A stretch of DNA of 64,000 bases, from assembly GCA_963924555.1 (NCBI GenBank), contig OZ004581.1, positions 3,720,001 to 3,784,000 of the forward strand, read 5' to 3'. Position 1 is the first letter of the stretch; each line of letters opens with the position of its first letter. Made by a program: the position numbers and the translations under genes. Of the stretch, positions 926 to 61,395 are shown piece after piece. Origin of the DNA: Crambe crambe (lineage: Eukaryota > Porifera > Demospongiae > Poecilosclerida > Crambeidae). The notes beneath the pieces are model-generated. The model was not told where the DNA came from. It ran no database searches and saw nothing but the letters and a program-made list of their open reading frames with translations.

Positions 926-1376
926 TTTGTGGCAGAAAATTTTAAAATATGCACTTATTCGACACTAGCTTATTTCATACTTGCAACATTTTCTTGAAGC
1001 CATAATGCTGATTTGAATTCCTGTTGGCTTCGCCTCCAAGGCTATCAGTTAAATCGATCATGCCTGGATATATAGATTGCATGTGAGTTTAAAATTAATG
1101 ATCCATCGATTGATCCATCAATTGATCCATTGATTGAACTCTGTGAGCTTTAGTGAATTTTTGAACACAAACATTGTTCCTTATAATTATAGGAGCAAAT
1201 CTGAAATGGTTATAAGCAAAGAGAGTGCAAGCAAAATCTTTTGGTGACTACACCCACTATGTGATCAACAGTTATACTATGGTAACATAGTACTTACCAT
1301 CAATGATCATGTACCATGAGAGTATACTATTTTACGGTCACGCTGTCACATTTTGCATTTTTTTTGATGTATTCAG
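926..1376. other. Sequence upstream of the Ig exon; nothing recognised
   Basis: AT-rich. It ends in a T-rich tract and the AG acceptor at 1375-1376. No convincing first exon or signal peptide was found, so the 5' end of the NLR gene probably lies before the window. Confidence 0.4.
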
Positions 1377-1697
1377 AACCAAAACTCAAAGCTACTTTAT
1401 CTCTTCATCCAAAAGATGGTAACCTAGTTCTGGGGAAAAAATATGAACTGAAATGCAACCCTGAATTGGATATTCCAGGAATGGATATTGATTGTTCCAA
1501 ACTTGATTGTACCTACAAGTGGCACAAAAAAGGAAAAGAAGAACCCATAGACATTACAACAAAAGGAATCCTTAGCTTGAAATCTTTTGAATTTTCTGAT
1601 GCTGGATGCTATACTTGTACAGTTACTGTTAAAAAAAATAATCTTCTTGATAGTGACCTAACGGTCACAGAAGAAAGAGATGTGGAAGCAGTACTAG
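1377..1697 (+). CDS. Exon: immunoglobulin domain (phase 1-1)
   Basis: The exon opens after TTCAG at 1372-1376 and closes at GTAAGA (1698). It encodes about 107 residues with the Ig hallmarks: first cysteine in YELKCNP, core tryptophan in TYKWHKKG, and the D-x-G-x-Y-x-C signature as SDAGCYTC. Both boundaries fall in phase 1, the usual phase for shuffled Ig exons. A close relative lies at 51964-52254, where an in-frame stop interrupts it. There are two extra cysteines (IDCSKLDC) between the core cysteines. A membrane or secreted location would be normal for Ig; none is shown here. Confidence 0.8.
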
Positions 1698-4600
1698 GTA
1701 AGACAAGATATGTTTTGTCTGTTCAAAGGAATGCATTGTGTAAAGCAAGGATTTGTGCAATAATATTATTATGAGGGATGGAGCCTGATGTTGGATAAAT
1801 GGGGGGAAGGAGGGGGGGTGGGGGCAGGAGATCCCTCAGAGGATATTCCTAATCCCGAGTCTTGAGTGCTTTTATGCTCAGCACTTACCAACTCTATATT
1901 CCAATTATTGCAGCAGAAAAATGCCGGGAAGAAATGAAGGAGAAGTATAAAACGATGCAGTTTGACCCCATTGATAACAATTGGACAAGGAGGCATGTGA
2001 TCAAACTCTCACTTGAGAATCATGGTAAGGGAAAACCTGGAGATGGAAATAAAGGGACTCTAAAAGTTTCAGAGATTTACAAATGCTCTAAGCATATCAC
2101 AGTACTTAAGGGAAAACCTGGAGCTGGAAAAACTACACTTATGAGAACAATTAGTCGTGACTGGTCACTTGGAGATATTGAAGAGTTTTCAGAAAAGATA
2201 CTCATTCTGGTTATAATCAGAAATCATCGAGACTACAGTCTAAAAAACATCATATATCAATCATGCCCGTGGTTGAGCAGCAGAAAGTATGAATACCTTC
2301 TTCAATGCCTTGACAGTGGTCAAGGAGAGGGCTTTGTGTTTTTATTGGATGGATTAGATGAATATCACGAGTCACCCCAAGACATCCAGCCCAATGCTTC
2401 ACAGCTAACATCTGCCGTTGAAAATATTCTAAGTGCGAATATTTTAAAGAAAGCCACAATAATTGCTACATCCAGATACTCTGCCTACTTACTCGATAAA
2501 ATTAACCATGATAATGCATGCTCTTTTGAAATCAAAGGTTTTCTTGAAGATGAAGTATTTGATTACTTTAAAGAACGTTTTAAGGGGGACGATGACAAAT
2601 ATAGAGAAGTGGAAAGATATTTAACAGACAATCCAAACATGGTGAAGTTATGTTATATACCCTTACACTGTGCTATTATGGCAAATATATTATTTGAAAA
2701 GCATAAGGAAGATCCACCTAAGACCGAAACAAAGTTTTTCGAGATGCATACAAGATGTAGAATTGTCCGATCAGTATGTAGACAAGGTAATCGTCTTTTT
2801 TTTCTACGAAAGCTTGATAAACTTGAGGGTGAAAACAAAAGACTATTTAAAGATATTTGCAAGTTAGCATACCATGCAACAATGGAAAGAAAACAGAGTT
2901 TAGATGAGATGGAACTAGAGAAGTTCGAACTTAAGTGTGACAGTTTCCATTCACATCAGGGTAATATAAATGGAGGCCTAGGGTTACTTGTTATCACCCC
3001 CAGTATAACACGAGAAGGTTTACCTAACAGCACATACAGTTTCACTCATCTTGCTGTTCAAGAATTCTGTGCGGCGTTCCACATTGCTAAACTGCCACAG
3101 CCACATATAACCAAGATCATCGAGGATGAGAAATGCCGTAATCACCTCAATTCGGCATGGAAGTTTATTTGTGGACTACTAGACTTCACTAACAACCTTA
3201 ATGGTGCATTGGAAGTATTTCGTACCTTGATGGAAAAATATACAAATGAAGGAAAAAAATTGCTTTTCAAGATTCAGTGTGCTCATGAGACTCAGGAACA
3301 AGAGCCATGTATAGTCCTTTATAAATCCCTCAAAGAAATTACGATTTTGGGCATGACACCACCAGAACTTTCACTTTTCATGGATACGATGAAAATATTA
3401 GGGAGTGCGAACACCGAACTTCCAGATCTTGAAAGTATCATGTGAGTGTCATTGATATGGCTGGTATGTACAGCAAGCATAATCATATAGTACAATGCGG
3501 TTTTATTATGCTCTAGCCAAATCACAGCTGTAAGGTCATAGGGTAGTTGTAAATAAATCTTGTAGTGAAATTTTTGCAGAAAGTGTAAATAGCAGTGCAT
3601 GCACAGAAGTACTTAATTGAACAACAATTCTTCCAGTGTTTACTAAATACAATCCATTTGTATAGTGTACTAATTATATAATATGTAAGCAAAATAGTAT
3701 ATCCTTTCAAGTTTGTAGTGAAGATGAGATTTACTCTCCATATCCCTACACAGCCTTGATTGCAACCAGATTGAAGATGAAGGAGCCGAGATTCTCTCTG
3801 GAGCCTTGAGGAAGATGCCCAATCTTCAGGTTTTAAAGTAAGTTGACCTATGTACAGCCATAGATATACTAGACTACGTACACAGGATTGGAAACAGGTC
3901 ACGTGTGCCCATAACGACAATACTGACAATCCGTGTAGGCAGCTGTTCGTGCTAAATTGCCCCAAACAAACAGGGGAGGAGAAGTAGTGTGCCAAATTTC
4001 TGCTAAACTATAGCCAATTGGTAAATTTAAAGAATGCAAAGAGTGGGCTAGTATAGTGCTAAACAAGCATAGTTCTTAAAAAGGCTGGTTTCTCAAGTGT
4101 TAGAGGCTATAATTGCGAGTAACAATGGTAGTTCGACTTTGTGGACCTCTGGAGCTTGGATATTAAAAGTATAGTCTCTTTTTTTCCACTAATCTGTTAG
4201 GCAGTGATCATTCCATAGTTCCCAACTTTGAGAAACTAACTTCAGGGACACTAAATTTTACCACAAGTCACACCTACTTTTGAAGTCCCGCCCATGTACC
4301 ACGCCTATATTCTGGCCACTGACTGAAGACAGAAGGACTGTGGAGAAGAACAGTTTTCATCAACTGAACATCGAATTATTTGACCTTGTGCACTGTTGAT
4401 TGATACATGCAGCTGTCTTAGCTTACTGCATTGTCTGAATGATGTCGTGCATTCATTAGTGGCTCTGATTATGCTGTTAAGTAAACAAACTACCGTAGTC
4501 AGTAGTGCTAAAAAGAAGCTTCCGGGACAAACAATAGGCAGTTTACACTTCCGTGGCGGGACGGGACAGAGCTGATAAATCCGGGACTGTCCCGGACGTT

Positions 4601-26223: not shown

Positions 26224-27657
26224 TTGGCCCTTATCAGCATCTGGACCCTGCAGAGCATACCCCATTAGATTATTTGAGTTTATTGTGGCCAGATTCCTTG
26301 AATGATTTGATTGTGACAGAGAGCAATAGGTATGCCGGGAGGAAGAATCGGTCAGGATGGGTTGATATTACTAAGAGTGAATTCTTGGGTTCAACTAGTG
26401 ATGGGGATACACCGCCTGCCCAGAATTAATGATGCATGGAGTAAGGATAAGTTATTGGGAGTAGAGGGAATCCAGAGGTGTATATCTAGGACTAGATTCT
26501 GGGATATTAGGTCCAATTTGCATTTGGTAGATGATGCGGCCCTTCCTCCTGGTGGTAGCAGCCTGACCCGTAAAATTAAGCCACTGTTAGATACACTTGG
26601 TGATAAATTTTTCTTGAATTATAGTCCTGGCCAAGAGCTGGCGGTTGATGAAGCCATGATTAAGTATAAGGGTCGTGCGAAGGGTAAAGTGGTGATGCCC
26701 AAGAAGCCAATAAAGAAGGGTTTTAAGATTTGGTGTTGTTGTTGTTCCTGTTGTGGATACCTCTGCACTTTTCAAGTGTATGAGGGAAAGCCTATCAACC
26801 TGGTAACTGGCGAGCGGGAAGCAGAGAAGGGTATGGTTATGAGAGTGGTCACAGATCTCCTTAGACCCTTTGTAGATATGAATCATGTTGTTTATTGTGA
26901 TAACTTTTTTTCCAGTGGGCCTCTTGTGGAATCGTTGGCTAAGGATAAGATTTATTATGTTGGCACCATCAAACAGAGAGCATTAGGATTTCCTGCAAAT
27001 TTGAAGGGTGTTAAGCCTCCTAGGGGAAGCTATGTTGTAGAGAGAGTGGGAGATGTGTGTTACTATGTTTTTAATGATCGTAAGGTGGTGTCCTTTGTGA
27101 GTAATGTGTTTCCTGAGCATATGGAAGATGAAGTGCCACGGGTTCAGAGAGGTGGTAGAATAGGGTATCAGTCAGTCCCCCCACTATTGCCGGCCTATAA
27201 TAAGTACATGGGTGGAGTTGATCGCGTTAGTCAGCTTAGAAAGAGTTATGGTTATGATAAGAAATCTAAGAGGTATTGGTTGCGTGCCTTTTTCCAGTTC
27301 CTTGACTATGCAGTAGATAATGCCTTTATTTTGTACAAGCATAATTGTAAGTATTATAGAGTGAAAGCATGTAAGCTGCTGGATTTTAGATTGGATTTGG
27401 TTCGCCTTCTGTTAAAGGATAAGAGGTATAGGGAAAGGTCTCCTTCTAGTAGTAGTAGTAGTGGTGGTGCAATGGATGATGTCAGTGTTGAATGTAGTCT
27501 GGTTAAGTCCACTGACGCTGGCTTGCCGCGGGGTAGGTGTGAACAGTGCTTAATCAAGAGGGCGAAACGAGTTCGATTTACATCCTACGCCTGTTCCATC
27601 TGCAGGAAACGACTGTGTAAAATTCCTTGCTTTAGAGACTTTCATAGATTACAATAA

Positions 27658-40615: not shown

Positions 40616-41651
40616 GTATATACTATTATGCCTGCAACTGAAACTTGAATAATTTTTTTTTCCACTAGCATTTGTCAACCCTTGATAATGTGAATTGCAA
40701 CCTGAGCTGTACACGTGCATGGACGCTGACAAGTCGTATATCTGCATATCAAACTCATTCTACAGGAATATTACAACCGACGGTGATAATTGACATCACA
40801 ATAAATCAGTAGTGCACATTAGGTATGAGCTAGCTTGTGGTAGCTAGCTATCTATGGTTGAGAGTATTTCTGCTTGGGCTCCAGGATTGACTTGGCCTCC
40901 TCCTTGGTGAAGGTTAGACTCTGATTCCAAAGGATATCCTGAGCCTATGGGACGTATTTTAATGGTGTGGTCTCACGGTATGCAATAATTACTTGCACTA
41001 CTTGCACCACTAGAAACAAGTTTACTATGCAAATGCCCTTTCCCAATATAAAGTATAAAAGAGGTAAAGGGTCAGGTGCTAGTTAGGTGGGCCCAATTGT
41101 ATGGGCATGGCAGGACCTAGAAATGAATGTGCCATATGTGGCAAATCTTACTAGGCCTTCCTCTTGTGATCGCTTAAGTTTTCTTCTTCATCCTCGCCAT
41201 GTGGAGTTAAATTCAAGAGATCAAGATAGCAAGAGAGGAAAGGCCTGGGAGGACAACCGACAAAGCCATAGTAGTAAATGGTTGGGAAAAAATGATTTTA
41301 TGTTCATCTCTTCCTCCATTTCTTGAACATGAAGCCATGTATCATCTCCAATGCTCAAATTTTTGTCTACAAGTTAAGTTGGTTTTTTAATCACCAGCTT
41401 CAAGAATAGCTTCTTCAGTGTATGCATTTGAAGTATAAACTTTTACAAGCCTTATGATCATTGTTATCAAGCTACCCCAATGTAATTGCTTAACTCCTTG
41501 CTGTGCATGCACATGAAATCCTGCAATGACATCATCATGATAATTATTCATTCCAATATTCCAATTTTTTTAATAGTTGTCTACTACATAACTAAAAATA
41601 ATCTGAAGTAATTGGAAAATGAAGGGGAAAACTTATGCTCAATAAAATCAA
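40616..41651. repeat. Dispersed repeat, diverged relative of 54108-54579 and 63187-64000
   Basis: 40690-40975 matches those two copies at lower identity, and 40985-41460 matches 63663-63950. The open frame at 41087-41326 is inside it and was not accepted. Confidence 0.6.
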
Positions 41652-41857
41652 TGTAGGGTTAGTCTGTACTTGTACCTGTAGTGAACAGATATGCTGCCTT
41701 CAACTACCTCACATTACTGCCTAAACCAAGCAGAACACTTTTACACTGACATGAACAATTAAAGCAGCTTGGTGAGAGGCAGTGATGTAGGGATCGTTAT
41801 TGGCAGCATAATTTGTTTACAGAAACTGCTATAGGTGAAGTACAGACTAACCCTACA
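41652..41857. mobile_element. 206-bp MITE with exact 19-bp terminal inverted repeats
   Basis: It starts TGTAGGGTTAGTCTGTACT and ends with the exact complement. TGTAGGGATCG occurs inside. No clear target duplication. Confidence 0.85.
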
Positions 41858-42040
41858 ACAGTGCTCCCATTAAGTATTCAAAGTTGTTCAGACATGATGT
41901 GGGAGAGCTTTGGCTGACAACATATTTTTTGACCACACAACTATATTTTTAATAAATAAAAAAAAACTTTCAAGTTTGTATGAAAATGTATGAAATGTTT
42001 TAGTGTATGTAAATGTTTTGTTGGGTTTTTCTTGCATGAG

Positions 42041-43990
42041 TTAGGTGATCCAATTTTCCCAATCTTCCAAAGAAAAGCGAGCTTCATCCTCGGACTCTGA
42101 ATTAGACATTACAGTAGACTTCTCACAACGCTCACGGTACTCATCTTTGTGATTGAGTCTCCGTACCTTTTCTTTAGTCCACAGCTCCAATGCACCACCT
42201 GCATCCCATTCTGAGAGAGGAGGACCTTCTACATTAATTCTGATGAGCTGATCGAGGGTGTCTTCTCCAAGGCAAGTTCGCCGATCAGTTTGAGCCGAGA
42301 AATACCCATTCCAAGTGTCCATTTGACATAGGAAGACAAAACAATAACTCTATGACAGGTAGTATATTACTGCATCAACTGCTTCCACTAAATTACTTTA
42401 TAATCTTCTTGTACAATGTTCACGTATTTTCTTGCATACTCCACTATGTCGTCCCATTCATCTTGAAGCATTCTCCAGAGGGATTTTAAACCTTTGATAG
42501 ATTGCTTGAAGAGGTACATGTGCTGTATCACTTCTCTCCCAACCATTTGTAGCCAGAATGGTCACTGCATGGGTGAGCAACTCAAGTGTCCTCAAACTAC
42601 ACAAATCTCATCTTCCTGGAGAATTTTGCAAAGTATTTCACAAGGTTTAAGAAGGTCATGGAAGAAGGCACAGCCTAATAATATTTTGGAGTTCTACCAC
42701 TTCAGTCTGTAACCTTTAGCTTTCTGTGTATCTGTGGATTTCATTCTGGAATCTTCTACAATAGCTGTCAAGTGAGTGAAGTATGCCCCAATTCTATTTA
42801 TCACATTCGCTCCAGGGCAGCCACTTTATGACCAAGTTCCACATGCACGCAGAGGGCGAATGCCTCCTCCAGGGGTTTGTGAAGGTTCCAGGCAGGCTTT
42901 CAGCTCGATCACAATATCTTCTAATTCATGGCACTTCTTGAATGATTTTTTATACATGTAGTACATGCGTAAAAGAAGCTCATCAATGTCAGAAAAAAGG
43001 TTTGAGTTCAAGGCATCCTTCACGGAAAGTTCGAGCCGATGAGCCAAACACCAAAACATGAAAATCCATGGCACCTCATTCTTAAGGAGCCTCTTTAAAC
43101 CACCTTCAGCCATGTTGGCACTATACATCCATCGCAACCAAAGCCAATCATTTTTTCCTTCCATTGATCTTCAAATCCCATTATATGCTACAGCTTCTTT
43201 AAGAGACTTGAAAAGACGTTCACCTGTTGCACTACTAAGTGTCTTGCACTGAAAAATCTGCTTCTCACTTGAACTTTTCCATCTTCAGAGAAGGGATCAA
43301 AGTGAAGGACCAAGTACATTTCCACTAACACATTGACAGAATCTGTGCTTGCATCAGCTTGAATGCTAAAAAAGTTTGACTTTGATAGGGTTGCTATAAG
43401 TAAATTTTGCTGCTCACAAGCAATAAACTTAACAAAAGTGGAACAGGCTTGGTCATTTTTATACCCATCTTCTAAATTAACACCATGCTGTTCTTCCAGC
43501 TCGCTTATGGACTTCATCTTGGTGAATGCCAGGTTTTCCTTCACTATCGTGTATGCTATATCGAATTTCCTTTTAGTCCTTTCAATAGTGGCAGAATCCA
43601 TGGAAGACTGAGCCAGACACTTAGCGATAGGTATGTAGTCACATACATTGGACGATTGGTGCTTCTTAAATAGTGTCCATTCCTGCATGCTCCTTAACCG
43701 ATGGTTAGTAGTGCCATCGATGAAAGCAGACCTGAAATTTCTCATAGATTCAAGTTTATCCTTGAATTGACAGCAGACCGAGCACCTTAATGTTGCTACA
43801 TGATCGCGATCGGCCATATCGAACTTGAACCAAACTGTAGTATTCAGTTCTTTGTTGTTTTCTCTCACCCATTTCTCAACTGTGCGCTGCTCTTTTCTTT
43901 GATAGTGGCTGAAAACAAGGACTAGTAGCACTAGAACTACAAGATTCACTAGAAGATAGCCTCTTTCTACCTTGATTGGAGATTTTGTCT
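42041..43990 (-). pseudogene. hAT-like (ZNF862/KIAA1586-type) transposase remnant
   Basis: Minus strand, N- to C-terminus: a serine/lysine-rich start (43985-43900, one frame off), a TTF-type zinc finger (LRCSVCCQFKDK with GTTNHR), a DDE-like core segment with QADASTDS, then WCLAHRLELSVKDAL (about 43064-43020) and MYKKSFKKCHELEDI. After a degenerate stretch (42825-42325) the hAT dimerisation tail follows (INVEGPPLSEWDAGG, then SLEDWENW). At least three frameshifts separate the pieces. It belongs to the same family as the + strand copy at 45.2-47.6 kb but is clearly diverged. Terminal repeats were not identified. Confidence 0.75.
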
Positions 43991-44458
43991 GATCAAGAGC
44001 AATTTTACCCAGTCACGTGCAATGAATAACCGGAAATTGACCGTTATTTCTAGCACTGCTACAAGGATTTTATTTAGCATTTTTTCCCCTTCACTTGTCA
44101 TAATTATTGGCCTTCTGAACTGCTAGTACATGCATGAATAACATCTTTCTAGATTGTAGTGTGTTTTCAACTGTTTCACAGCTATACTTCATACTGGCAG
44201 GTATTGTGATATTTCCATACTTTGAAGTGCAAAAGGTTTCTGATAAACGAAGCGTGGATAATCAAGGTTCTACCAATACGTAGCTGTAGCTGTCATACTG
44301 CTTGTATTAGAAGGTATGGTTTATAGCTAATTATTGATTTGACTTACCAATGAAAATTTCATTCCTGTAATATTCTAGATGCCTCTTTCTTGTGTCCAAG
44401 AGTGGCGGGCTCGTACTGGCTCCTGCTGGTGTGTTCTTGGCCGACCTGCTAAATGTAG

Positions 44459-47400
44459 GTCTCCCTTTCGTGGAAAGGAGAGTCAGCCATCTCAAACCTC
44501 GTCTTTCACTACCTTTTTCCTGATACTACTTTCAGCAATGAATTTTGGGATGATATTGGATCTCATAAATGCAACTTGCCATCTTCTGAATTGGAGTAAG
44601 TACAGTTTATTGAAAAATGTGATGATATTGCCACAAGGAATAATTACCTACACTAGTATAATTGTACATGCATCTTTACATAGGTGTGAATACGTTGATA
44701 TTGTTGGTCACATGACTTGTGACCAATTTAGATCCTCTGAAAAATGTGCTTTAAATAACACTTCTCAGTGTTTATTTGAAGGTACATAGAAACCTAGCCT
44801 CGTTCCCCGGCTCTAAAATTTTGCGGAGGTGGACAAAAGAGCCTGGTACCCACTGTTTGCACATGCGCCAATTCCCCCTAATTGGGGGAAATTGTAATCT
44901 CTCAGTAATCTTCTGTGACGCATGACACAATACTGGTGAATCAGCACTGGAGCAGACTAGCTCTAGTTCACCAGTTCTTCTTTGCAGACGGAGTCAGTGT
45001 GTTTTGTTTCCACCTAGTACTGAACAAGGAGCAGCAGCAAGCAATTCTCTCCGTTCGTTTGTTCGTTGGGGAATAGTGCAGAGCTGAGGCTGTGATCATC
45101 TCTGGATTTAAGGGAGAGCGGCTTTCTTGCCACCATGAATAGTTTTCAGTGCTTATTATAGCGGTCGGAAAACGGCCCTTTTCCTATCAAATGAGATCAC
45201 ATGCCGCTCAAACTCGATTTAGCCAGGCCAAAATGGCCGAACAAGCTAGGAAGCGTTTGTTTAGCAGTTCTTCTGTTAGCTCTAGTGAAGGAGAATCTTC
45301 TGCGGGAACAAAAAAGAAGCCTAAAAGGCAAGCTAAAGTGGCAACGTTCGAAAAGTGGAAGCGAGAATTCAATCCTAGGCACCGCTGCTTGGAGTGGCTC
45401 AGGTGTGATCGAGAAAAGTCTGATAAAAATTCGGTTTCTACGTTATGGTGTGAAGTTTGTAGAAAATACAAGGACAAGATTCAAGGAATGAGAAACTACA
45501 CTGGTGTTTGGGTTGTTGGCTCCACCAACCACAAGACAAGTAACATCGTGGATCACGCAACAAGTGATCAGCACATCACCTCGATGCAGCGCTTTGATTC
45601 TGATTGTGAAAAAGCTAGGGGGAGTCCTCTTGAAGATTACGCTCCTATCGTTCGGTCTCTGGTAGTGCTAGATGAAGGTGAGAAGGCTAAACTGAAGAGT
45701 AAGTTCGAAATTTGCTATGTACTAGCAAGGGAAAGCTTGGCCTTTGTCAAGTATCCAACTTTTCATGCCTTGTCAGAGCACCATGGAGTGCATCTAGGAC
45801 ACTCCTACAAGACAACTGATTCTGCCAAAGTGTTTACTCACTTCATTGCTGAGGCTCAAAGAAAGCTTTTCCTGCATGGTCTTGCCCGCGTCAAGTTTGT
45901 TAGCTTTCTCATGGATGGATCCACTGATGCTGGCAACCTTGAACAGGAGGTAATTTTCGTAGTTTACTGTGAAAAAGATGAGGTTGCTCACCAAATTAGA
46001 TCTGCTACACGCTATTTAGCAATTGTTAGTCCTCAGCATAGCACAGCTGAGGGTTTAGTAGATTGTTTGCAAGAAGCATTGAGCAGGCTTTGTATTGATA
46101 TTCACCAAGATGAAGATAATGATGTGGATATTATCTTCAGTGATGGAAAACCAGTACTAGTAGGTGGGGGTACGGATGGGGCCTCTGTCAACATTGGTTG
46201 TCATAATGGTGTTAAAGAGAAATTACAGTCTATGTTCCCTTGGCTCTTTTGGGCTTGGTGTTTCTCGCACAGACTTGAGTTAGCATGCAAAGATTCTTTT
46301 ACCAGTCCTCTTTTCAATGAAGTCACTATTTGTACAAGAAATCCCCAAAAAAGTCACGTGAGCTTGAATCTATTGCTGAAGATTTAAGGGAGTTTTTTGA
46401 TATCCCTAAAGGAGGTAACTTGCCCATTAAATGCCAAGGAACACGATGGATAAATTATAAAAGAAGAGCTCTTCAGCGGGTTATTGATCGATATGGAGCA
46501 TATATAACTCACCTTACCACTTTAGCAGAAGATAGTACTCTAAAATCAGCTGACAGAGCACAACTTAAAGGATACCTGAAGAAGTGGTCTTGTGGAAAGT
46601 TCATTATTGCTTGTGCTTTGTATGTTGATGCTCTTAAGCCACCTTCCCTTCTGAGCTTGGTTCTCCAAGATGACAAAAGAGTTGATATAGTACAAGGAAT
46701 TAAAAGCATCCTTAAGTCTGTGAGTACCCTTCAGGCTATGGTCCAGCAAGACCCTCTTCAGTGGCCAACGGTGAAACTTGTTTTATCCAGGATTTCGACC
46801 GACGGTAGTGGTGGAAAGCTTTATCAAGGTAGTGTTCTTGCCCAATATACAGATAGCATGCTCACTAGATGCATTTCTGTGGCTGTATCTGACCTGAAGA
46901 AACTTGATTGTAAGATTAGGGACAGGTTAGCTTGGTCTGATGCTGAGTTGTTGAGGTCTATTTTGGCTTTCCTAGACACTCGGAGTTGGGCTGCACCAGC
47001 AAAGGTATCTATGGTTGTGGAAGGATGTGATAGTTCTGATACCGAAAAAGTTCAGGAGGAAGCTGATGATAAAGCTGAAATTAGGGCAGCTATGCACTAC
47101 ATAACTTCTGTTTTTCGAAAGCCACTGGAACTGAAAGGAACAAGCTTGTTTTTATGTGATGATGAGTTGGATGACATGATCGACTATTGCAGAAACTATC
47201 TTGATTGTAAGCTAGAAGACTACAGAAGGATCTGGTATACCTTGCACACCACTCAAGATGCAGTGAGATGGCCAAATCTTCTTATTGTAAGTGAGCTTCT
47301 TTTTAGCTTACCTTTTACCAATAGCAAGGTAAAGAAGTCTTTTTCACATCTGAAGGTTATTAAGTCTGAACATTGTACCAGTCTCCATACTAGTACACTG

Positions 47401-49776
47401 GATGATTTGCTTGAGATTAATATTGAAGGACCCCCATTTGAATCTTTTTCTGCTGGCTCTGCAGTTGGACCTATGGTGGGCACAAACAGTTCGCAGGCCT
47501 AACCAGAAGTCAAGGAAAGACTATAGACTCAGAGAAGGAAGCAGTAGCAGCACTGACGATGATTCTCAGTTTTATAAACCCACTGATGAGTATTCACTTG
47601 ATGATTGGGACCAGTGGTTCAATAATAACTCAGAATGAAATGAACATTTTCTTTCATATGAACTTTTTCAGATATTTTCAGACACATTTTCATGCAATAA
47701 TTTTGATTGAGTGTATGTATGTCATTTTCATGGAATAATTATGATTGAGTGTTGAAATGTGTGTATGTGGACAGTACTTATCAGCTTGAACTTATGTCCT
47801 GCAGAGATCATAAAATGTCCTATCAATATTTGAATTGACCTGACTTTTGTCAGATTATCTCAAAAATGTTATAATTAGCACTGGTTTTAGAAGTGCCAGT
47901 CTTGTCTTCCCTTCTCCTTGGTGTCTTATGCGCATGCTCATACACGTAGTTACATGCTGTGACATCACACACTGTCATAAAGTATAATAGGCGGGACACT
48001 CACGTGAATTTTTTGGCGCCTGCGCAAACAGTGGGTACCAGGCTCTATTTTCCACCTCCACATAATTTTAGAGCCTGGGTATGAGGCTACATAGGAGCCT
48101 AGTGAAAGTTCCGCTGGAACTATGACCTTCCAGCCTCAGTCCCAAGTGCTTACAGTAAGATAGGAACTGAAAGTCTTCTTTTTATAACTTCATGGCAACA
48201 TTTATTTTGGTTACCTCTAAGAGTGGCCAACCTCTGAACAAGACACAGATAGAGCTGACTGTATTGTTATTTAATACTTTGACTGGATATGTAGATTGCT
48301 CGTACTGTGGCTTGAATTTTCTTGTGCAGGTTGCAGTTGTAGCCAGCTTAACTACCTGGGCCCAATTGTGTGGGCAGAAATGGATATGCTCATGGCCATG
48401 CCCCATTAAAGTTTTTTTCTGCCTTTCTTCTTCTTCATTTTCCCCTCTACATGGGGTCAGAGTGCAAATAAGGGGTCAAGATAGTGCAAGAGAGTGTAAA
48501 CAAAAAAGCCTGAGAATGAGGTTGTGGTATTCTTCAAGCACAGTTAGCAGAGTATATACTCCACAGCCGTTTCTAGGGGCAGCCTATGACTGAATTGACT
48601 CTGTACTACTCCCATAGAAGCCAGGGAAACACGAGTCATATTACTGGAAATTTATGGTGCAGTAATACCATTCATTGCCACCCTTAAGGTAGCTTCCTAC
48701 TCCGAAGAAGTATTATCATATCATAAACTCAAACTGAATATACTGTTCATTTCGAATGGATCTTAAAACCATCTACATGAACATGCTTTTGCTACTTGTA
48801 TTCAGTGATAGTGGCTATTTGGTAGACTATAGGTACAGCATAGTCTCATGCGCATGAGACTAGGTGCAGCTCTAGATGTATGGACCTTATGATGCTTACC
48901 TTTCTACAGAATTTTTCTGGGCCCATGTGTACCTTCAACCATTGGAAACCCTTCTTATTGTATGTGTGAGTCAGAAGCTAATTTCTAAAGGTGAGACTCA
49001 TGACAGCTAAATGCAATTAATGTGACTTCACTTTCTGTAATACAGTAAAGAGTACCTACAAATTATCTCATCAAAAAATATCGTGGTATTGTCAAGAAGT
49101 GTTTGACTGTCATACAAGCCAGATATTTCCATTGAACTACACAGTGAAGACTGTACATATAAAAGTAGCTACAGCTGTGGTTTCCGTAGCATTTATTGCT
49201 GCCAGCATCATCTTCTATCTACTATTGCTCTCTGGGGATGTGGAATTGAACCCTGGGCCAACCATTTTCTCTGGTAAGGACTGTAGTTAAATTCTTGAAT
49301 TGTATATGCATGAGATAGCTACTATTTCCTTTTGTAGTTTCATTCTTCCTTTGCTTCATCGGGATGACTTCTGTCCACCTAGTGCATGCACTACCAGTCA
49401 TTCGTCAAGTGATGAGTGACAACAGCACTACAGGAGATGGTGCAACTGGTAGCACATCCCTCCCTCCATCCCTCTCTGGTACGTGGTATTCTATAATAAT
49501 TATTATGTAACATTATCCAAAAAATTGTAATGTTAACTCAGGTGGTGACATTGCCGGAATTGTAACAGGTGTCTTTGGAATGTTTACTGGCCTCATTGGA
49601 GCTCTCATTGCTATTGCTGTCTTTTGCTTCAATGTGTGTAAACATTGCCATCAACCAGGTATAACGCTAACAGGATAATTAATTTACTTGTGCATGATGA
49701 TGTTTCTTAAGATCAAAAGGCTATACCGCCATATATGAACAAACACTGCAGAGAACAGCCTGGACATTGGCACTAA
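44459..49776 (+). CDS. Membrane-protein gene with internal 2A ribosome-skipping motif (7 exons read; 5' end uncertain)
   Basis: Exons: 44459-44595, 44684-44781, 48910-48990, 49046-49273, 49338-49478, 49542-49658 and 49712-49776 (TAA 49774-49776). Junction phases agree: 2 at the first join and 1 at all others. The early exons are cysteine-bearing (CEYVDIVGHMTCDQF.., two NxT/S sites) and may be ectodomain. Exon 4 ends in a hydrophobic segment and the 2A motif, exon 5 has a second signal-like segment, exon 6 a membrane span. The expected outcome of 2A is two chains from one mRNA. A 3.3-kb hAT-like element sits in the third intron. The ectodomain family is not recognised; no start codon was assigned. 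Exons 4-7 are more certain than exons 1-3. Confidence 0.55.
44795..48089 (+). mobile_element. hAT-like DNA transposon, 3295 bp, about 76-bp terminal inverted repeats
   Basis: The left end TAGCCTCGTTCCCCGGCTCT and the right end (reverse complement TAGCCTCATACCCAGGCTCT) stay similar for about 76 bp, up to TTTGC(A/G)CA(T/G)GCGCCA. The flanks CATAGAAACC (44785-44794) and CATAGGAGCC (48090-48099) look like a 10-bp target duplication with two differences; hAT elements normally give 8 bp. It lies three bases downstream of a donor GT in the 2A gene intron, in the same orientation. Confidence 0.85.
45191..47638 (+). pseudogene. hAT-like transposase, two frameshifts
   Basis: The likely start is ATG at 45191 or 45233 (MAEQARKRLF). 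It reads a Ser/Lys-rich nuclear-type N-terminus, a TTF-type zinc finger (LWCEVCRKYKDK, GSTNHK, then HATSDQH), a core with FLMDGSTDAG and GGGTDGASVNIGCHNGV, then WCFSHRLELACKDSF. A small deletion near 46325 shifts the frame; the second frame (46330-47502) continues with YKKSPKKSRELESI and the dimerisation region (ELLFSLPFTNSKVKKSFS, EINIEGPPFES). A second shift near 47460 leads into the tail (EYSLDDWDQWFNNNSE, ending 47638). Closest in type to ZNF862/KIAA1586-like proteins. A short upstream frame with strong initiation context starts at 45135. Confidence 0.85.
49046..49273 (+). CDS. Exon with hydrophobic segment and 2A motif
   Basis: The exon opens after TAATACAG and closes at GTAAGG, phase 1-1. 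It reads a polar part with two cysteines (WYCQEVFDC), a possible glycosylation site (NYTV), a hydrophobic stretch of about 25 residues (ATAVVSVAFIAASIIFYLLLL) and then SGDVELNPGP followed by TIFSG. D-V-E-x-N-P-G-P is the exact 2A consensus, in which the ribosome skips the Gly-Pro bond (49259/49260). The hydrophobic run just before it is typical of animal 2A signals described at the N-termini of sea urchin NLRs and in LINE ORFs. Here it is in a spliced exon with no adjacent RT, so a host gene is favoured. Confidence 0.75.
49234..49263 (+). promoter_or_regulatory. 2A translational recoding site
   Basis: Codons for SGDVELNPGP. The skip would fall between the final glycine and proline, leaving the upstream chain with a C-terminal 2A tail and starting the downstream chain with proline. 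Confidence 0.75.
49338..49776 (+). CDS. Downstream chain: signal-like segment, Ser/Thr stalk, transmembrane span, short tail
   Basis: Exon 5 (49338-49478) encodes FFLCFIGMTSVHLVHALP, which would lie some 7 residues from the new N-terminal proline and so could act as a signal peptide, then a Ser/Thr/Gly-rich stalk. Exon 6 (49542-49658) encodes a glycine-rich span (GIVTGVFGMFTGLIGALIAI, AVFCF) and CKHCHQ. Exon 7 gives a 21-residue tail (..KAIPPYMNKHCREQPGHWH) and stop. The mature downstream product would be a tiny type I membrane protein of about 80-100 residues. The CxxC after the span is notable. No domain family was recognised. Confidence 0.6.
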
Positions 49777-49784
49777 TTAAATAT

Positions 49785-51036
49785 AAAGCGCAAGGGACAC
49801 ATGCAGCGAATCCACCACAAAAATCACTCAACATCGGACAATCTCATTGATTATCGCTACTACAATCGTTCAGCAATTCAACTTCCCAGCTGCAAACTGG
49901 GAAGAGCTAATAGAATTTAAAATGAACACGTCAGCAACTTGATATTCGGACTGCGAACGATCCATCGACTCTTCCTGGCCATTACAAAGCATTAGAAGTA
50001 AGTTTTGGAGCATTTTTAAGTTGAAAAATAGCACATCCGACATATTTAGCCTAAGCTAAGGTTAATCTCACGTGCCAGACGTATTTTTATGAGGAGGGGA
50101 AGGGAAAAATATGTCTGGTAACAATCGCCAGGTTTCCGTTCTTTCAAAGAATGTACATTACGTGACTTGTAGGATAATAATTTACCACATGCATGTGTGC
50201 ACACAATTAAAATCAGATCTAAACTTTGAGATGGCTTCGCTGTTCAGAGCTTGCATGTTCTGTGCTGCAACATCCAAACTCAGGCATAACATGGCCGACT
50301 CAAGCGCCAAGAAAGGTCTTGTAGTCCAACTAGTCTATAGCTAGCTATTCTGACCTATCTGTTGGAAGGCACACAATCCTTTCCCAAAACAAAGCTCTTT
50401 ATGTTGGAAGGCACGCAATCCTTTCCCGAAACAAAGCTCTTTATCTTGCTTGATTGCCGAGCTTATTGGCAGCAGCAGAGATTGCTGCACTGACAGAACT
50501 CTCTGAGTAGACAGCTAGCTGGCCAGATAATTTTGAGCCGCGCGCACATGCGCGTTATCAAATTTTTTGTCATAATTATGTCAAGAAAACCTGGCAATTG
50601 TTACCAGACATACTTTTTTTTATCCTCCCTCGCAAAAAAAAAGTGTGCCTGGCTAGCGAGACTACGATAATACCAATCTTAGAATAAAAGTACGCTAGCT
50701 AGATCTTTCTAAATATGTCGGATGTACTATTTATGCAACTTTGTAATGGCCGGAAGAGTCAGTGGATCGTTCACAGTCCGAATATCAAGTTGCTGGCGTG
50801 TTCATTTTAAATTCTATTAGCTCTGCCCAGTTTGCAGCTGGGAAGTTGAATTATTGAACGATTGTAGTAGCAGCTTGGTGCTACCAGTTAGTCTGTAGTC
50901 TTGGTTGGTATCGTATAAAGTGTGATTTCTACTAGGAGGTATCCGATTATCAATGAGATTGATGTTGAGTGATTTTCGGACGTTTCATTTGTGGTCGATT
51001 CTCTGCACGGTATTATTCCGTTGATCCCTTGCGCTT
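49785..51036. repeat. Foldback element downstream of the 2A gene
   Basis: The arms of about 250 bp (49785-50040 and 50700-51036) are inverted copies, for example CAGCTGCAAACTGGGAAGAG at the left and its near-complement at 50825. The right arm holds an extra stretch of about 75 bp. The element starts 8 bp after the stop codon of the 2A gene, so it may form its 3' UTR. Confidence 0.75.
50063..50664. mobile_element. TAGTCT-type element nested in the foldback
   Basis: Right end GCCTGGCTAGCGAGACTA and left end TAATCTCACGTGCCAGAC are inverted over about 70 bp, extending to GTCTGGTAACAATCGCCAGG. The flanks show no clear 9-bp duplication. Confidence 0.7.
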
Positions 51037-52614
51037 CATGTTTAATTAGTGCAGGTTTGCCCTATCTTTCCATCGTGGAATTTTATTTTATACTGTCCTC
51101 TGTAGTGTCCGTTCATATATGGCGGTCGATAATTGAAAATCTACTCTACTACGTTGGCTTATCACAGAGCCAAGTATCCAATAACCATTTGTAGATAGGC
51201 TTAATTCTTATTTCCAATAAACCCTCCGGCCTTAGTATAGCATCCTTTCTGCACTGGGATGCTACAGCTCAGGATCCATGGGATTCTAAACACTATAGAT
51301 CCCTCTTGGTTTTAGAGCCTGTACAGATCTCCTAGGAAGCATGCAGGAAGTCATTATATATCGTGTCCATTCTGGTGTCTTTCCTCCTTTAGTTCGTCTC
51401 GAAATTGAACCTAATGGTACCAACGTCATTGGAAAAGATTACTCTCTAACATGTACTGCCATGACTGATATTCCTGGGGACACATTTGAATTTTCTTGGT
51501 ACCATATTATCAACACTGATAATAAAAAAAAGGTTGGTGCAACAAGCGAACTGTCATTCAGACCCCTGAAAAGTTCTGATAAAGGAAAGTACACTTGTGA
51601 ATGTTCGCTAAAGCAGAGACGTGGATGCTTTTCAAGGAAATTGCTTCCAAACATAGACAATTCGAAATCATACCCCTTGGATGTAACTGGTAAGCACCAC
51701 CATGCACCTGAAATAACGTCATTTACCCTTACTTCCAGACCCTATCATTTCCGCTACTATCAAGGATGATAAGTATCCAATAGTTGAAGAAAGTTATAAA
51801 CTGCGGGAGGCCGGTATTACAGTTAATGTCCAGCCCTCCTATGGGAGTAAATGTACTAGGTGCAATTATCTTGCGTTTTGGCCGGAGTGTGTGTGTGAAA
51901 TTAATTTTTCGATATGATTTTTTAACGTGAATATTACTGTCATGATATTTCGGATTTTTTCAGTTCCAAAACTTGAAGCTCCTTTATCTCTTGATCCAAA
52001 GGATGATAACCTAGTTCTGGGGAAAGATTATAAACTGCAGTGCAAGCCTGAATTGAATATTCCAGGAATTGATTTTACCTACAAGTGGTGCAAAGAAGGA
52101 GAACCCACAGATGTTACAAAAGGAACTTTTACCTTGGAATCTTTTAAATTTTCTGATGCTGGACACTATACTTGTACAGTTACTGTTTAAAAAAATGATC
52201 TACTTGATGGTGTCCTCACGGTCACAGGAGAACAAGATGTGAATCCAAGACTAGGTAAGACACTATGTAAGTTATGTTCTGTCCAGCATTGTGTAAAGCA
52301 GGCAAATAAAGGGATGTTTTATGGCAGAGCCTGATGTAGACATCCCAAAGGCATAGGCATAAATAGTTTCGACTATAGCTGTGCAATCTGACTAATTCAG
52401 TGGTTTTACAGTGTTTCTAACTGACTTAGAAAACAGTAGGGTGCTTAACAGTTTTTCTAAGAGCCTAGGGCACTTAGAATACCTACTTATTGGCACTTAA
52501 AACCCTAGCTCTCAGGGCATAGTTACTACATGCTGTCATGTGGTAAATCCCCAGATATGCCCGCACACTATAAAAATTGAACAGTAAAATATATATGCTA
52601 CATAATAGTGAGAC

Positions 52615-52738
52615 AACGAGACCAAATGATCTAAGTTATTTAGAGACCCGAAGGCCCTGGGCTGTAGTGACCCAAGTGTAGCAAGGGCACTACTAAGGGC
52701 CTGAGGCTCTCCAAATAACTTAGATCACATTGGTCATA
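52615..52738. repeat. Hairpin element
   Basis: GATCTAAGTTATTTAGAGA at the left is inverted as TCTCCAAATAACTTAGATC at the right. Part of it recurs at 6965-7057. Confidence 0.75.
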
Positions 52739-52747
52739 AATGGTATC

Positions 52748-52770
52748 TGTGTGTGTGTGTGTGTGTGTGT
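52748..52770. repeat. (GT)n microsatellite followed by G run
   Basis: About 11 GT units, then a G-rich tract just before the possible NACHT acceptor at 52792. Confidence 0.95.
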
Positions 52771-54107
52771 TGGGGAGGGGGGGGGGGGGCAGGAGATCCC
52801 TCAGAAGATATTCGTGATCCTGAGTCTTGTGCTTCTATGCTCAGCAATTACCAAATCTATATCCCAATTATTGCAGCGAAAACATGCTGGAAAGAAATGA
52901 AGGAGAAGTATAAAATTATGCAGACATTGGATGTGATCAAACTTTCACTTGAGAATCGGGATGGTAAGGGAAAACCTGGAGATGGACATAAAGAGACTCT
53001 AGAAGTTTCAGAGATTTACAAATCCTCTAAGCACATCAGAGTAATTATGGGAAAACCTGGAGCTGGAAAAACTACACTTATGAGAACAATTGGTCATAAG
53101 TGGTCATCTGGAGAGATCAAAGAGTTTTAAAAAAAGATACTCATTCTTGTTACAATCAGAGATCTTCATCAAAACTACAATGTAGAAAACATCATATATC
53201 AATCATGCCCATATTTGAGCGAAGAAGAGCGTGAATACCTTCTTCAATGCCTTGACAGTGGTAGAGGAGAGGGCTTTGTGTTTTTATTGGATGGATTAGA
53301 TGAATATCAAGATCAAAAAGACACAGATGCAACATACATTGAAAATATTCTAAGTGAGAATAAGTTGAAGAAAGCCATAATTATTGCTACATCCAGAGAC
53401 TCTGCCTACTTACTCAACAAAATTACCAATGATAATAATACATGCTATTTTGAAATCAAAGGTTTTCAGGAAGATGAAGTATTTGATTACTTTGAAAAAC
53501 CTTTTCCAGGGGACAAAAAAGTGAAAGATTATTTAACAAGCAATCCAAACATAATGAAGTTATGCTATGTACCCTTACACTGTGATATTATGGCAAATAT
53601 ATTATTTAAAGAATTTGAAGATCCACCTCCTGAGACGGAAACTGAGATTTTCAAGATGTATACGAGACATAGAATTGTCAGATCTGTACATAGACAGGGT
53701 AATATTTTTCAACCACTAATGTTTGATGAACTTAAGAGTAAAGACAGAGAACTATTTGATGATATTTGCGAGTTAGCATACCATGCAACAATGAAAAATA
53801 CACAAAGTTTAGATGAGAAGGATCTAAAGGGGCTCAAACTTAAGTGTGACAATTTCCGTTCACATCAGGCTAATATAAATAAAGGCCAAGACATGCTAGG
53901 GTTACTTGTTATCACCCACGTTGAAACACGGGAAGATTTACTTAACAAATACAGTTTTACTCATCTCACCGTTCAAGAATTCTGTGCAGCGTTTCACATT
54001 GCTAAACTGCCACAGCAAAGTATAACTGAGATCATCGAGGATGAGGAACGCCGTAATCACCTCAATTCTGTGTGGAAGTTTATTTGTGGACTACTAGACT
54101 TCACTAC

Positions 54108-54579
54108 AACAACACAACAATATGAAAAATCATGTGATTCCATGCATCATCCATTGTGTATGCACGTGACTATGACCTATGATGACTAATCAGCACTATT
54201 GTTCTTTATGAGGTAGTCTTGCGAACTGAGCTGTACACGTGCATGGGTGCTAACAAGTTGTGTTGGTGGCGTATCTCCAACAGGTGGTTGAATTAATATA
54301 TCAAAAGAAAAGAGGAGGGGGTTGTCACAACCAACAGTGATATATAAATCTGACGTCACAATAAATCAGTAATAAAGCAAGTGCATTAGGTATGAGCTAG
54401 CTTGCTATCTATGGCTGGGAGTATTTTCTGCTTGGGCTGCAGGATTGACTTAGCCTCTTTAGTTAAGAATCTTGGCTCCAAAAGATGTCCTGAGCCTAGG
54501 GAACGTGTTGTAATGGTGAGGTTTTAGGAAAACAAAGGTTGGGGTCTTCCAGGATCCAAGAAATTGTGTAGGAAAAATG
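54108..54579. repeat. 472-bp direct repeat, near-identical to 63187-63662
   Basis: Starts AACAACACAACAATATG and ends GTAGGAAAAATG. Only a handful of differences from the second copy. Its left edge is exactly where the NACHT pseudogene breaks off. Confidence 0.9.
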
Positions 54580-55700
54580 CTTTTGCAACTTTTGACAAGT
54601 TTTATAACTATACAATCAACTATGAATTGGCAGGAATGATGTATTACATAGTGCCATTGATTAGTTAATGAACCATGGTATGCATAACTGCGTGAGGAGA
54701 AAGAGTACCTTTAAATCAAGAGTTCCCTAGTGTAATCAATACAGTCATTTAGCTATTGGTCGCATTCTATATATATACCAAAGGTCAACTCGGCTGTATA
54801 CCTATCTAACAAATATTTCCCAATTTACGGTAGATAACTTATTTATTGAATAGAAACATGTGGAACATCATATGTAGGCTAGCTACTATAGCAATGGAAA
54901 AGTCTACTAACCATCTATAAAAAGCAAAGGAAAAAATATTTATCCTAAATGAAAAAGAAATGGCTGTGTGCAGTTCAAAAAAGTTCAGCAACAAGAGAGT
55001 CGAGTAACCCCTTAGCTACCCATCACCAATATTACCAAACTACGAGTTACTTCACTCCCATGACAGGCCAAGATGAGATATTGCTCGTAGTTTGGTGATG
55101 GGTAGAGTTCACTCTCTTGTTGCTGAACTTTTTTTGAACTGCACACAGCCATCCCTACTTTTCTTTTTTATTTGTGAATAAATATTTTTTCTTGATGTAG
55201 CTAATGGTCTATCATTTTATTATAGGAAACTGGATGATGTAATCCTGCTATCCAAGTTAAAGTTCACATATCATAGCTATGTAGCTAGCTAGTTCATTGG
55301 AGGTCTCATAATATTGCATGAGCCGAAATGAATATCTGGAAGGACTAATGCTGATGAAGCTGGTATCTATACAGTCTAATAATTTTTAAGGCCTTTACTG
55401 ATTAATGTTGCATCAAGGGCTTGATTCATAACCAGACTAGTGCCTAGGGTTTATGCTCTGAGCATCAAGAGGATGTTATATCGATGGTGTGGTACACACA
55501 CATGGTGAAAAACTGCTCATGCGCAATATAGTGCACAGTAGAATAATTACCAATTACCCGGCACTTTTTCTGGCATCTGGTTTATAGCTACCAGTACCTA
55601 TGATTTAGGTATCAAAAGATAGCCCATTGAAAACTGATTCAGAATCCTGACTTTTAGTCATGGCTGTTAATTCATATAGCTAGATTTTATACATCATTAA
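54580..55700. repeat. Repeat-rich stretch with MITE family D copy 3 (54962-55175)
   Basis: The MITE has inverted GGCTGTGTGCAGTTCAAAAA ends and the family sequence AGCAACAAGAGAGTCGAGTA. The rest is AT-rich with nothing recognised. Confidence 0.65.
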
Positions 55701-57497: not shown

Positions 57498-57535
57498 AAC
57501 TCTGCAGATCTGGGACGTAGTACGCATGCGCAAGC

Positions 57536-57600
57536 AAAGCCGGAGCCCGCGGCGCGCCGGCCGGAGCTCGAGGGGGCCCGGGCCGGGGTGGAACGAGGGC
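57536..57600. other. Isolated GC-rich patch with clustered restriction-type palindromes
   Basis: CCGCGG, GGCGCGCC, GAGCTC, CTCGAG, GGGCCC and GCCCGGGC lie within about 50 bp in an otherwise AT-rich contig, followed by short GGGGGTGGAACGAGG-type tandem units. Confidence 0.7.
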
Positions 57601-60189: not shown

Positions 60190-61395
60190 GTAATGATCTT
60201 GAAAGTCCTTGCTTAACTGCATTCACAACAGCCAAGCACTCCTTCTCTCTGTTGTAGTGTATCTCGTTTCTCGTGAGATAAGTTTCCTAGAATAGAATGC
60301 AAGAGGTCTCTTATTGGCTGAGTGCAGCCTGTTGCCTGCTAAATGAAGGAATAATCTGACATTCTTGGTGAGTGGCTACTTGAAGTCTCAAATAGCTTGT
60401 GACTTGCACTCTTCTGATTTAAATTCTCCTCGCTTGATAACGCATTCAAGAAAAGTGCACTCTGCTTTAGCAAACTGACATTCAGTCCGGCTGTAGTCAA
60501 TCGCTAGAAGATGTCCTCTAAGTCCTTCAGATGTTGGTCCGCTGCTGTGTAGCCATCTGTTCCAGCCAGCACCTCGTCTTGGAAGGTAGATGTAGCACCT
60601 TTAAGTCCGAAAGGCATCTTATTGAACTCGAATTTTCCAAATAGTGCTGTTCTAGGCTTGTCTTCTTCAGCAACACCTGGTAGTAACCTTTTCTGAGATC
60701 CAGGGTAGAAATGTACTTTGCTCATCCAATGGTCTCCACAAGTTTGTCTGTCCTGGGCATCTGGTAAGGATTATCCACTGCCTCTGGTAGTCGATATACG
60801 CTTTCTTAAAGTACTGTCTTTCTTACTCACTGTGACAATTGGTGAGTTCAACGGGCTCATCAACTGATTACCCCAAGCTCCAGCAACTGCTGGATTTTTT
60901 CTTGAACCTCATTTTGCCAGGCAAGTGGGATTTGATATGCCGGGTGGACTACTAGATCGAATGTTCCAGTAACGTGGTGTGTCCCAGTGGTTCATTGAAT
61001 GTCCTCTTGGAATTCTCCTCAAGTCTGTGGGGGTAGATCTTGCTGTTCCTACGGTATGTCGTCTTCTCCTGGCTTAGTCTCCACATTATGTAATGGTAAT
61101 TCGTCCACTTCATGTTGATCTTCTGTAGCAAACGGCTGCCATAATATCCGTAGGTTCATTCCACTACTTCAAGCCATTGAGACAGAATTATCATATCATT
61201 TTCTTCTTATCAGGTAAGTTGAGTTTGTAAGATACAGGTTGATGTCTTCTCCATAGAGTCTTCTGGTAGTAGCACCAAGACTTTGCCTCCAACTGCAAAC
61301 TCTCTCTTCTGGTCATAGTACGTCTTAGATTTCTCCTTGATGTGTGCTTGAGCTTCCACAGCTAACTCTGTCATCTTCTCCATCCGGGTCTTCAT
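60190..61395 (-). pseudogene. Ty3/gypsy-type remnant with integrase piece upstream of RT and RNase H
   Basis: Read on the minus strand: 61395-61210 encodes AQAHIKEKSKTYYDQKREF and GGKVLVLLPEDS, the C-terminal part of a gypsy integrase. Then 61050-60780 has EHSI and PLAWQNEVQEKIQQLLELG, the region before RT. 60725-60504 encodes KFEFNKMPFGLKGATSTFQ, the RT core, and 60340-60250 encodes KLISRETRYTT, the start of RNase H. Frameshifts and stops are frequent. The order integrase, RT, RNase H is reversed relative to normal Ty3/gypsy and matches the rarer Gmr1-type layout, or else reflects rearrangement. Confidence 0.65.

Follow-up and report, generated by a model that had tools for sequence, protein, structure and literature searches.

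A leader exon ending in a 2A-type motif stands before predicted Ig-NACHT receptor exons in the sponge Crambe crambe

Results

The leader and 2A exons

We analyzed a 64,000-nucleotide stretch of the Crambe crambe genome (the window; contig C1, positions 3720001 to 3784000, in an assembly of 143 Mb and 119 contigs) that holds one copy of a predicted immune receptor gene whose front encodes a short leader ending in a 2A, or StopGo, motif. This copy, u4, is one of nine family units (u1 to u9), all of them on C1. Positions given without a contig are those of the window, and all splicing is predicted. The octet DVELNPGP is encoded on the + strand by codons 49237-49260 and follows a hydrophobic run, VHIKVATAVVSVAFIAASIIFYLLLL. 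With the hexapeptide before it, the octet makes up the StopGo/2A core LLLLSG-DVELNPG/P (49219-49260, + strand), with the predicted break between the Gly and the last Pro (codon 49258-49260). The core lies at the 3' end of an open exon (49046-49273, + strand), bounded by the acceptor TAATACAG and the phase-1 donor GTAAGG, which encodes about 35 weakly constrained residues, then a membrane span, and then the 2A. By hydropathy, the span is VHIKVATAVVSVAFIAASIIFY (49153-49218, + strand), immediately 5' of the 2A, and the same segment is present in u2.

Upstream lies a putative first coding exon of the leader (48876-48990, + strand; MYGPYDAYLSTEFFWAHVYLQPLETLLIVCVSQKLISK), with the donor GTGAGA in phase 1. 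It is open and aligned in all nine copies, each of which has an in-frame ATG at the position of 48876, and the coding chain probably starts there; with this ATG as the start, the leader is 105 to 109 amino acids long across the nine copies. Downstream of the 2A, a phase 1-1 exon (49338-49478, + strand) encodes a segment that by eye resembles a signal peptide (VSFFLCFIGMTSVHLVHA, with a VHA end before LPV) and a Ser/Thr-rich stalk, and a further phase 1-1 exon (49542-49658, + strand) encodes a membrane span, IAGIVTGVFGMFTGLIGALIAIAVFCFNVCKHC, with counterparts in u6 and u2. The junctions that link the 2A, signal-like and membrane exons are all in phase 1. The part from the leader to the membrane exon has no Pfam match, a sequence search of the PDB with the leader as query gave a single match at an E value of 0.78, and a search of viral contigs for relatives of the leader found none.

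An earlier note on this DNA had placed the motif in a well-bounded exon and had read the part downstream as another signal-like segment with a stalk and a transmembrane span, and the predicted splice sites at 49273 and 49338 and the two exons behind them agree with that description. Its further proposal, that one mRNA could give two membrane proteins if skipping occurs, is borne out at the level of the sequence. The exon chain that it drew from 48910 to 49776 keeps its 49273/49338 junction, although the start probably lies upstream, at 48876, and the chain probably runs on to a NACHT exon with homology reaching to near 54110.

A family of nine units and the u2 gene model

The leader-2A exon occurs in nine copies, including that of the window, between 3.55 and 3.99 Mb of C1 (a span of 435 kb), with 85 to 100% identity to the query; the best match outside these copies has an E value of 0.0096. 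The octet DVELNPGP, which fits the D(V/I)ExNPGP core of StopGo/2A elements, is identical in all nine at the peptide level, and all nine have the permissive upstream context LLLLSG. Matches to the signal-like and membrane exons are found at the nine units only (E value of 10 or less). The NACHT exon likewise has nine family loci at 75% identity or more, each about 3.8 to 17.3 kb downstream of one 2A exon and on the same strand, and these score 637 to 982 bits (best match at each family locus) versus 172 bits and 32% identity for the next best.

In u2 (C1 positions 3610234-3621192), nine predicted exons can be joined in frame into 1055 codons with no stop, and the frame is open on both sides of the 2A. 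Their order is leader, 2A, signal-like, membrane, three Ig-type (immunoglobulin-type), NACHT, and one exon with a leucine-rich repeat (LRR) pattern; the junctions are in phase 1 as far as NACHT, and the last one is in phase 2. Pfam recognizes Ig_3 in two stretches, I-set, and NACHT (E value of 1.6e-17) in this model, and the solved chains closest in sequence to the NACHT exon are NLRP3 and then, among others, NLRC4. No DEATH match was returned by Pfam for u2 at an E value of 0.01, and the leader, signal-like, membrane and Ig exons stand in that place instead. Hydropathy of a u2 model lacking the first Ig exon gave no further hydrophobic segment between the Ig and NACHT parts. Exons of 29-residue repeats with the LRR pattern and plausible flanking splice sites follow NACHT in u2 (one exon), u5 (two) and u6 (two), and five Ig-type exons are readable in u6, the last of them out of frame.

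Given the nine-to-nine pairing of 2A and NACHT exons, the u2 chain, the Pfam matches to Ig and NACHT, and the LRR-pattern exons, the gene most probably encodes a receptor of Ig-NACHT-LRR type, fronted by a leader-2A, rather than being the neighbor of a NOD-like receptor (NLR) gene. The earlier note had taken the membrane-protein gene and the NLR to be adjacent, and it had let the last exon of the former end at 49776. By the phase-1 chain, the one-to-one copy number and u2, the Ig and NACHT exons appear instead to be the 3' part of the same gene, and comparison with the sibling units shows that the stretch to 49776 is intron plus the end of a foldback element starting near 49725.

Selection on the leader and 2A

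Rates were estimated for three exons (exon 1 and the 2A and signal exons) after the near-identical copies u3 and u7 had been set aside. The ratio of nonsynonymous to synonymous differences per site (pN/pS) is 0.03 for the membrane span and 2A, 0.90 upstream of them and 0.60 downstream. A hand count of variable codons in all nine copies gave 7 synonymous and 1 changing in the span and 2A versus 11 and 39 elsewhere in the three exons (Fisher P of 0.0007). In the DNA alignment, the gaps in the 2A and signal exons are, by eye, multiples of three.

2A sites across the genome

A search of the genome with a degenerate DNA pattern encoding DVExNPGP gave 167 matches, and one with the reversed pattern gave none; this control rules out chance matches, and together with the nine identical octets it confirms SGDVELNPGP as a real 2A-type motif, as the earlier note had read it. 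Separate searches for the codon classes, one of which also admitted Ile, gave 57, 62 and 63 sites, and four more have an ATT codon, for a total of at least 186 D(V/I)ExNPGP sites; this is a lower bound, the ATT and ATG classes having had no searches of their own. The reversed-pattern controls for the codon-class and mismatch searches also returned none. Many of the sites are clustered on one strand, for example on C1, C5, C6, C8, C9, C10 and C11. Within three mismatches of one octet DNA sequence there are 78 sites, and the octet peptide is broken in one of them; third codon positions hold 24 of the 30 mismatches among the distinct octet variants (P of 3e-8).

We read the flanks of 19 other 2A loci (L010-L020 and L038-L045), a nonrandom sample made up of the 11 best matches after the family and 8 chosen by hand. 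Judged by eye, the downstream exons are DEATH-like or NACHT in 12 of them and ankyrin repeats in two; nothing was recognized in the remaining five (L011, L015, L043-L045). The ankyrin repeats lie 3' of the 2A in L016, where Pfam scores them with an E value of 1.4e-51, and, by eye, in L020. These two loci and L011 and L015 (on C16 and C6) share a leader that contains MERTMSLPQSGLAVFGFVLL and, ahead of the 2A, another hydrophobic run.

The association with DEATH-type exons was counted with a single DEATH-like exon, taken from a 2A locus, as query, and the counts lean on that query. At least 39 of the 186 sites are followed within 2 kb by a DEATH-type match on the same strand; among the matches listed, each of the other three arrangements has none. 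When the sites are limited to the 177 that lie on contigs of known length, the count at 2 kb is at least 38, versus a mean of 0.39 and a largest value of 3 in 500 random placements. At 18 kb on the same strand, the two counts are equal (at least 43 versus at least 43), as expected for tandem arrays. With ten matches picked by eye from the Pfam list alone, the count is 4. NACHT matches within 18 kb on the same strand lie downstream of at least 23 sites and upstream of at least 9, and a DEATH match within 5 kb or a NACHT match within 18 kb lies downstream on the same strand of at least 55 of the 186. One array on C9 (positions 306738-572049) has 23 leader-2A sites on the - strand, 22 of them with a DEATH-like exon match less than 1 kb downstream.

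By a loose rule and without a chance control, 25 of the 28 sampled loci, nine of which are the window family, have a phase-1 GT donor no more than 31 nucleotides from where the last Pro codon begins; the exceptions are L003 and L004, both with a GC donor there, and L045. A Gly precedes the Asp in all 28. By BLASTP, 20 sampled loci fall into 12 leader groups, L042 and L045 being too short to compare, so that the groups number at least 10, and these groups have the leader end and the octet in common. A strongly hydrophobic stretch (15-residue mean above 1.6) is found in the last 30 residues before the octet in 13 of the 20 loci, leaving 7 without one. From these predicted exons, leader-2A exons of the same kind precede exons of DEATH-like, NACHT, Ig and ankyrin type at other places in the genome, and their phase-1 donors would make them portable.

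Decay of the window copy and other features of the window

In the window copy, the membrane exon is followed by an inverted-repeat (foldback) element with inverted arms (49725-51126) and then by the first Ig exon (51393-51689, + strand; phase 1-1), which Pfam assigns to Ig_3 over its cut-off with an E value of 1e-7. The foldback element is also in u7 and has no aligned counterpart in the other seven units. Alignment to the siblings reveals a remnant of a second Ig exon (51739-51803, + strand), the rest of which, with any further middle Ig exons, is absent from this copy. The last Ig-type exon (51964-52254, + strand) has an in-frame TAA at 52188-52190, and the NACHT exon (52793-54110, + strand; 75% identity) has one at 53128-53130; homology ends at 54110. 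As read from the genome, the window copy has thus kept its leader-2A part while its receptor part has decayed through stops, loss of Ig exons and two transposon insertions.

Upstream of the leader, at 45147-47883, is a hAT-like DNA transposon with two overlapping open reading frames (ORFs), a Pfam match to zf-C17orf113 and a subthreshold match to the hAT dimerization domain. Its ends are inverted and begin with CAGTGC, GTTTT flanks it on both sides, and u2 has the empty site. The stretch 41459-54874 is 98.8% identical to C1 positions 3885937-3899351, which hold u7, a recent segmental duplication that covers the same insertions. The last Ig-type and NACHT exons of the preceding unit, u3, lie at 1307-3445, and the u3 leader-2A exon lies before the start of the window. 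Judged by eye, a 446-amino-acid open frame at 26317-27657 has the look of a piggyBac-type transposase, and a fragment on the - strand at 60504-60770 resembles a gypsy-type reverse transcriptase. Also by eye, a GC-rich spot at 57528-57600, after a poly(A) run, is seemingly dense in restriction enzyme sites and looks like a cloning linker; it is probably genomic, as the stretch upstream of u8 aligns with the window at 97.5% from 57497 onward.

Discussion

From the identical octets, the selection on the span and 2A, and the recurrence of the motif before several kinds of receptor exons, we consider it likely that a portable leader-StopGo exon lets a small membrane leader come free of an immune receptor during translation. 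The ribosome would skip the Gly-Pro bond, and one mRNA would then yield a leader of 105 to 109 amino acids and a receptor starting with Pro. StopGo works by way of the nascent chain within the exit tunnel; since the leader span sits at the very C terminus and would still be in the tunnel at release, the leader would be inserted into the membrane afterward, in the manner of tail-anchored proteins. The receptor half would use its own signal segment and keep one span as its anchor, with the Ig-NACHT-LRR part in the cytosol.

Several points weigh against this interpretation. It is drawn from the genome sequence. The ATG at 48876 is a putative start, and an acceptor-like TTTCTACAG that ends at 48909 would also keep the phase. 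The intron before the 2A exon (48991-49045) is nearly invariant in the nine copies, conserved like the exons. The codon counts are not independent, because the nine copies share descent and gene conversion among them may have occurred, and the weak constraint on the leader residues before the span suggests that the leader's own function may be small. Among ten exons tested, Pfam places DEATH over its cut-off in three, weakly in a fourth, and not in the other six. The third Ig exon of u2 is not clearly over the Pfam cut-off, and Ig domains in the cytosol would be unusual. LRR-pattern exons were recognized in three of the nine units; none was found 3' of NACHT in u4 or u7, and the fetched stretches end too early in u1, u3, u8 and u9. 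The LRR call is one of pattern, a Pfam search with a single 29-residue repeat having returned no LRR match. Lastly, the window copy is broken, and u5 (a TGA and a split NACHT match) and u6 are damaged as well; over the stretch that was read, u2 is free of such damage.

What the release would achieve may differ among receptors. Those of the window family have signal-like and membrane segments of their own, so that skipping should also affect membrane topology. Without skipping, the u2 chain would carry three hydrophobic segments by hydropathy and pass the membrane a different number of times, which would probably place the Ig-NACHT part on the other side. A tentative extension, which we put forward with more doubt than confidence, is that StopGo is a routine, exon-shuffled regulatory module of innate immunity and that, in the window family, skipping flips the side of the Ig-NACHT-LRR body and so would work as a topology switch set in translation. 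For receptors that lack a signal of their own, skipping would choose between a cytosolic and a membrane form, as it does in the sea urchin NLR 2A reporters.

Dual targeting of that kind is also a possible account of the window family itself. As described in the available parts of Roulston 2016 (PMC4981915), sea urchin NLRs have an N-terminal 2A at a frequency of about 35% (85 of 241; 14 of 87 entries with the 26-amino-acid form in a later state of the database), one such 2A skipped with an efficiency estimated at about 80% in vitro, and its unskipped product went into the exocytic pathway. The sponge genes resemble this system, SpNLR2A, in that D(V/I)ExNPGP comes behind a hydrophobic run near the N terminus in NLR genes of a large family, and a DEATH-like exon is the next one recognized in several other sampled loci. 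However, the receptor half of the window family has its own signal-like segment and membrane exon, and both forms should reach the membrane; for this family, therefore, we regard a choice between a membrane or exocytic form and a cytosolic one as unlikely. The systems also differ in structure. The sea urchin 2As tabled in that paper are 26 amino acids long, stand at the very N terminus and themselves act as the signal. Here the leader has 105 to 109 amino acids and includes a membrane span, it closes a phase-1 exon, and the 2A is followed by further exons for another signal-like segment, a membrane span and Ig domains; other 2A leaders precede DEATH-like and ankyrin exons.

We regard it as improbable that the 2A exon belongs to a short gene of its own, encoding two membrane proteins and ending near 49776, with an NLR beside it. 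Reading on into the intron of the window copy does bring a stop shortly behind the membrane exon (ORF 49511-49678), and the same copy has a broken NACHT part. Such a gene is nonetheless hard to reconcile with the pairing of nine 2A exons with nine NACHT loci, with the stop-free chain of u2 through the Ig exons to NACHT, and with what the sibling units place before 49776.

We find it slightly more improbable still that the conserved peptide is merely a membrane or signal segment at which the octet skips negligibly or not at all. The octet is joined directly to a hydrophobic span under constraint, skipping is deduced here from the sequence, and the 2026 PNAS paper PMC12846837 states, in its available portion, that cellular organisms use StopGo never or only rarely. 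Against this stand the leader end and octet common to at least 10 leader groups, the retention of the octet peptide through synonymous changes, and an upstream hexapeptide of a class that has an active tested member. Leucine-rich hexapeptides ending in (A/S/C)G before the core are described in the same portion of that paper as its motifs 2 and 6; the name LLLLSG-like is given to one leucine-rich group, and an example of motif 6 showed activity in vitro. The core octet, the Gly before Asp and the leucine-rich hexapeptide, LLLLSG in the window, are thus likenesses to the viral StopGo elements treated there, which lie in viral reading frames, whereas the sponge elements lie in predicted cellular genes with introns.

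Very improbable is an exon that comes from, or is part of, a non-LTR (non-long terminal repeat) retrotransposon or viral polyprotein with a 2A: such peptides are known from non-LTR retrotransposons and RNA viruses, in the parts of the literature available, but the neighboring exons are those of a receptor and match it in phase, the u2 model continues into Ig and NACHT, and the leader has no relative among the viral contigs. An ancient origin of that kind is conceivable. As the current identity of the exon, a long interspersed element (LINE) or virus was rejected on the latter two grounds; reverse transcriptase was not sought beside the 2A sites.

Elements of the proposed receptor are known from elsewhere. 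The sea cucumber receptor AjNLRC4 (PMC8699970) likewise combines Ig, NACHT and membrane spans in one NLR-like protein. In the accessible part of that report, the two Ig-type domains of this receptor lie outside and precede a span at 483-503, NACHT comes next, another span (776-795) follows it, LRR is lacking, and no 2A is mentioned; in the sponge family, by contrast, the span is 5' of the Ig exons, and three units have LRR-pattern exons behind NACHT. Demosponge NLRs are described, in the accessible part of PMC12909245, which credits work on A. queenslandica, as expanded NACHT families with local near-identical duplicates, some of them transmembrane, as is the case here; neither a 2A nor an Ig-NACHT form is mentioned in that part. 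Searches of the open-licence literature at the level of titles and abstracts found no report of a 2A in sponge receptors, although the survey of Rao et al. 2025 may list such cases, and the text of PMC8623073 makes no mention of sponge, urchin, NLR and the like. An N-terminal 2A on NLRs is thus already known, as are Ig-NACHT membrane receptors, and membrane-bound NLRs have been noted for sponges, as far as the accessible parts of these sources go. What appears to be new, from the predicted gene structures, is a leader-2A that ends a phase-1 exon, stands before several types of receptor, and lies between two membrane-directed proteins.

The view that cells rarely use StopGo may be set against at least 186 intact core motifs in one genome, with selection visible on the peptide. 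With sponge and sea urchin, N-terminal StopGo peptides on NLRs are found in two animal groups that lie far apart, whether through shared ancestry or convergence, and this raises the question of what advantage immune receptors gain from releasing a leader cotranslationally. The genome also supplies many natural 2A variants for tests. If the tentative extension put forward above is true, at least 186 2A sites, many of them in tandem receptor arrays, would decide during translation whether a receptor stays tethered to its membrane leader.

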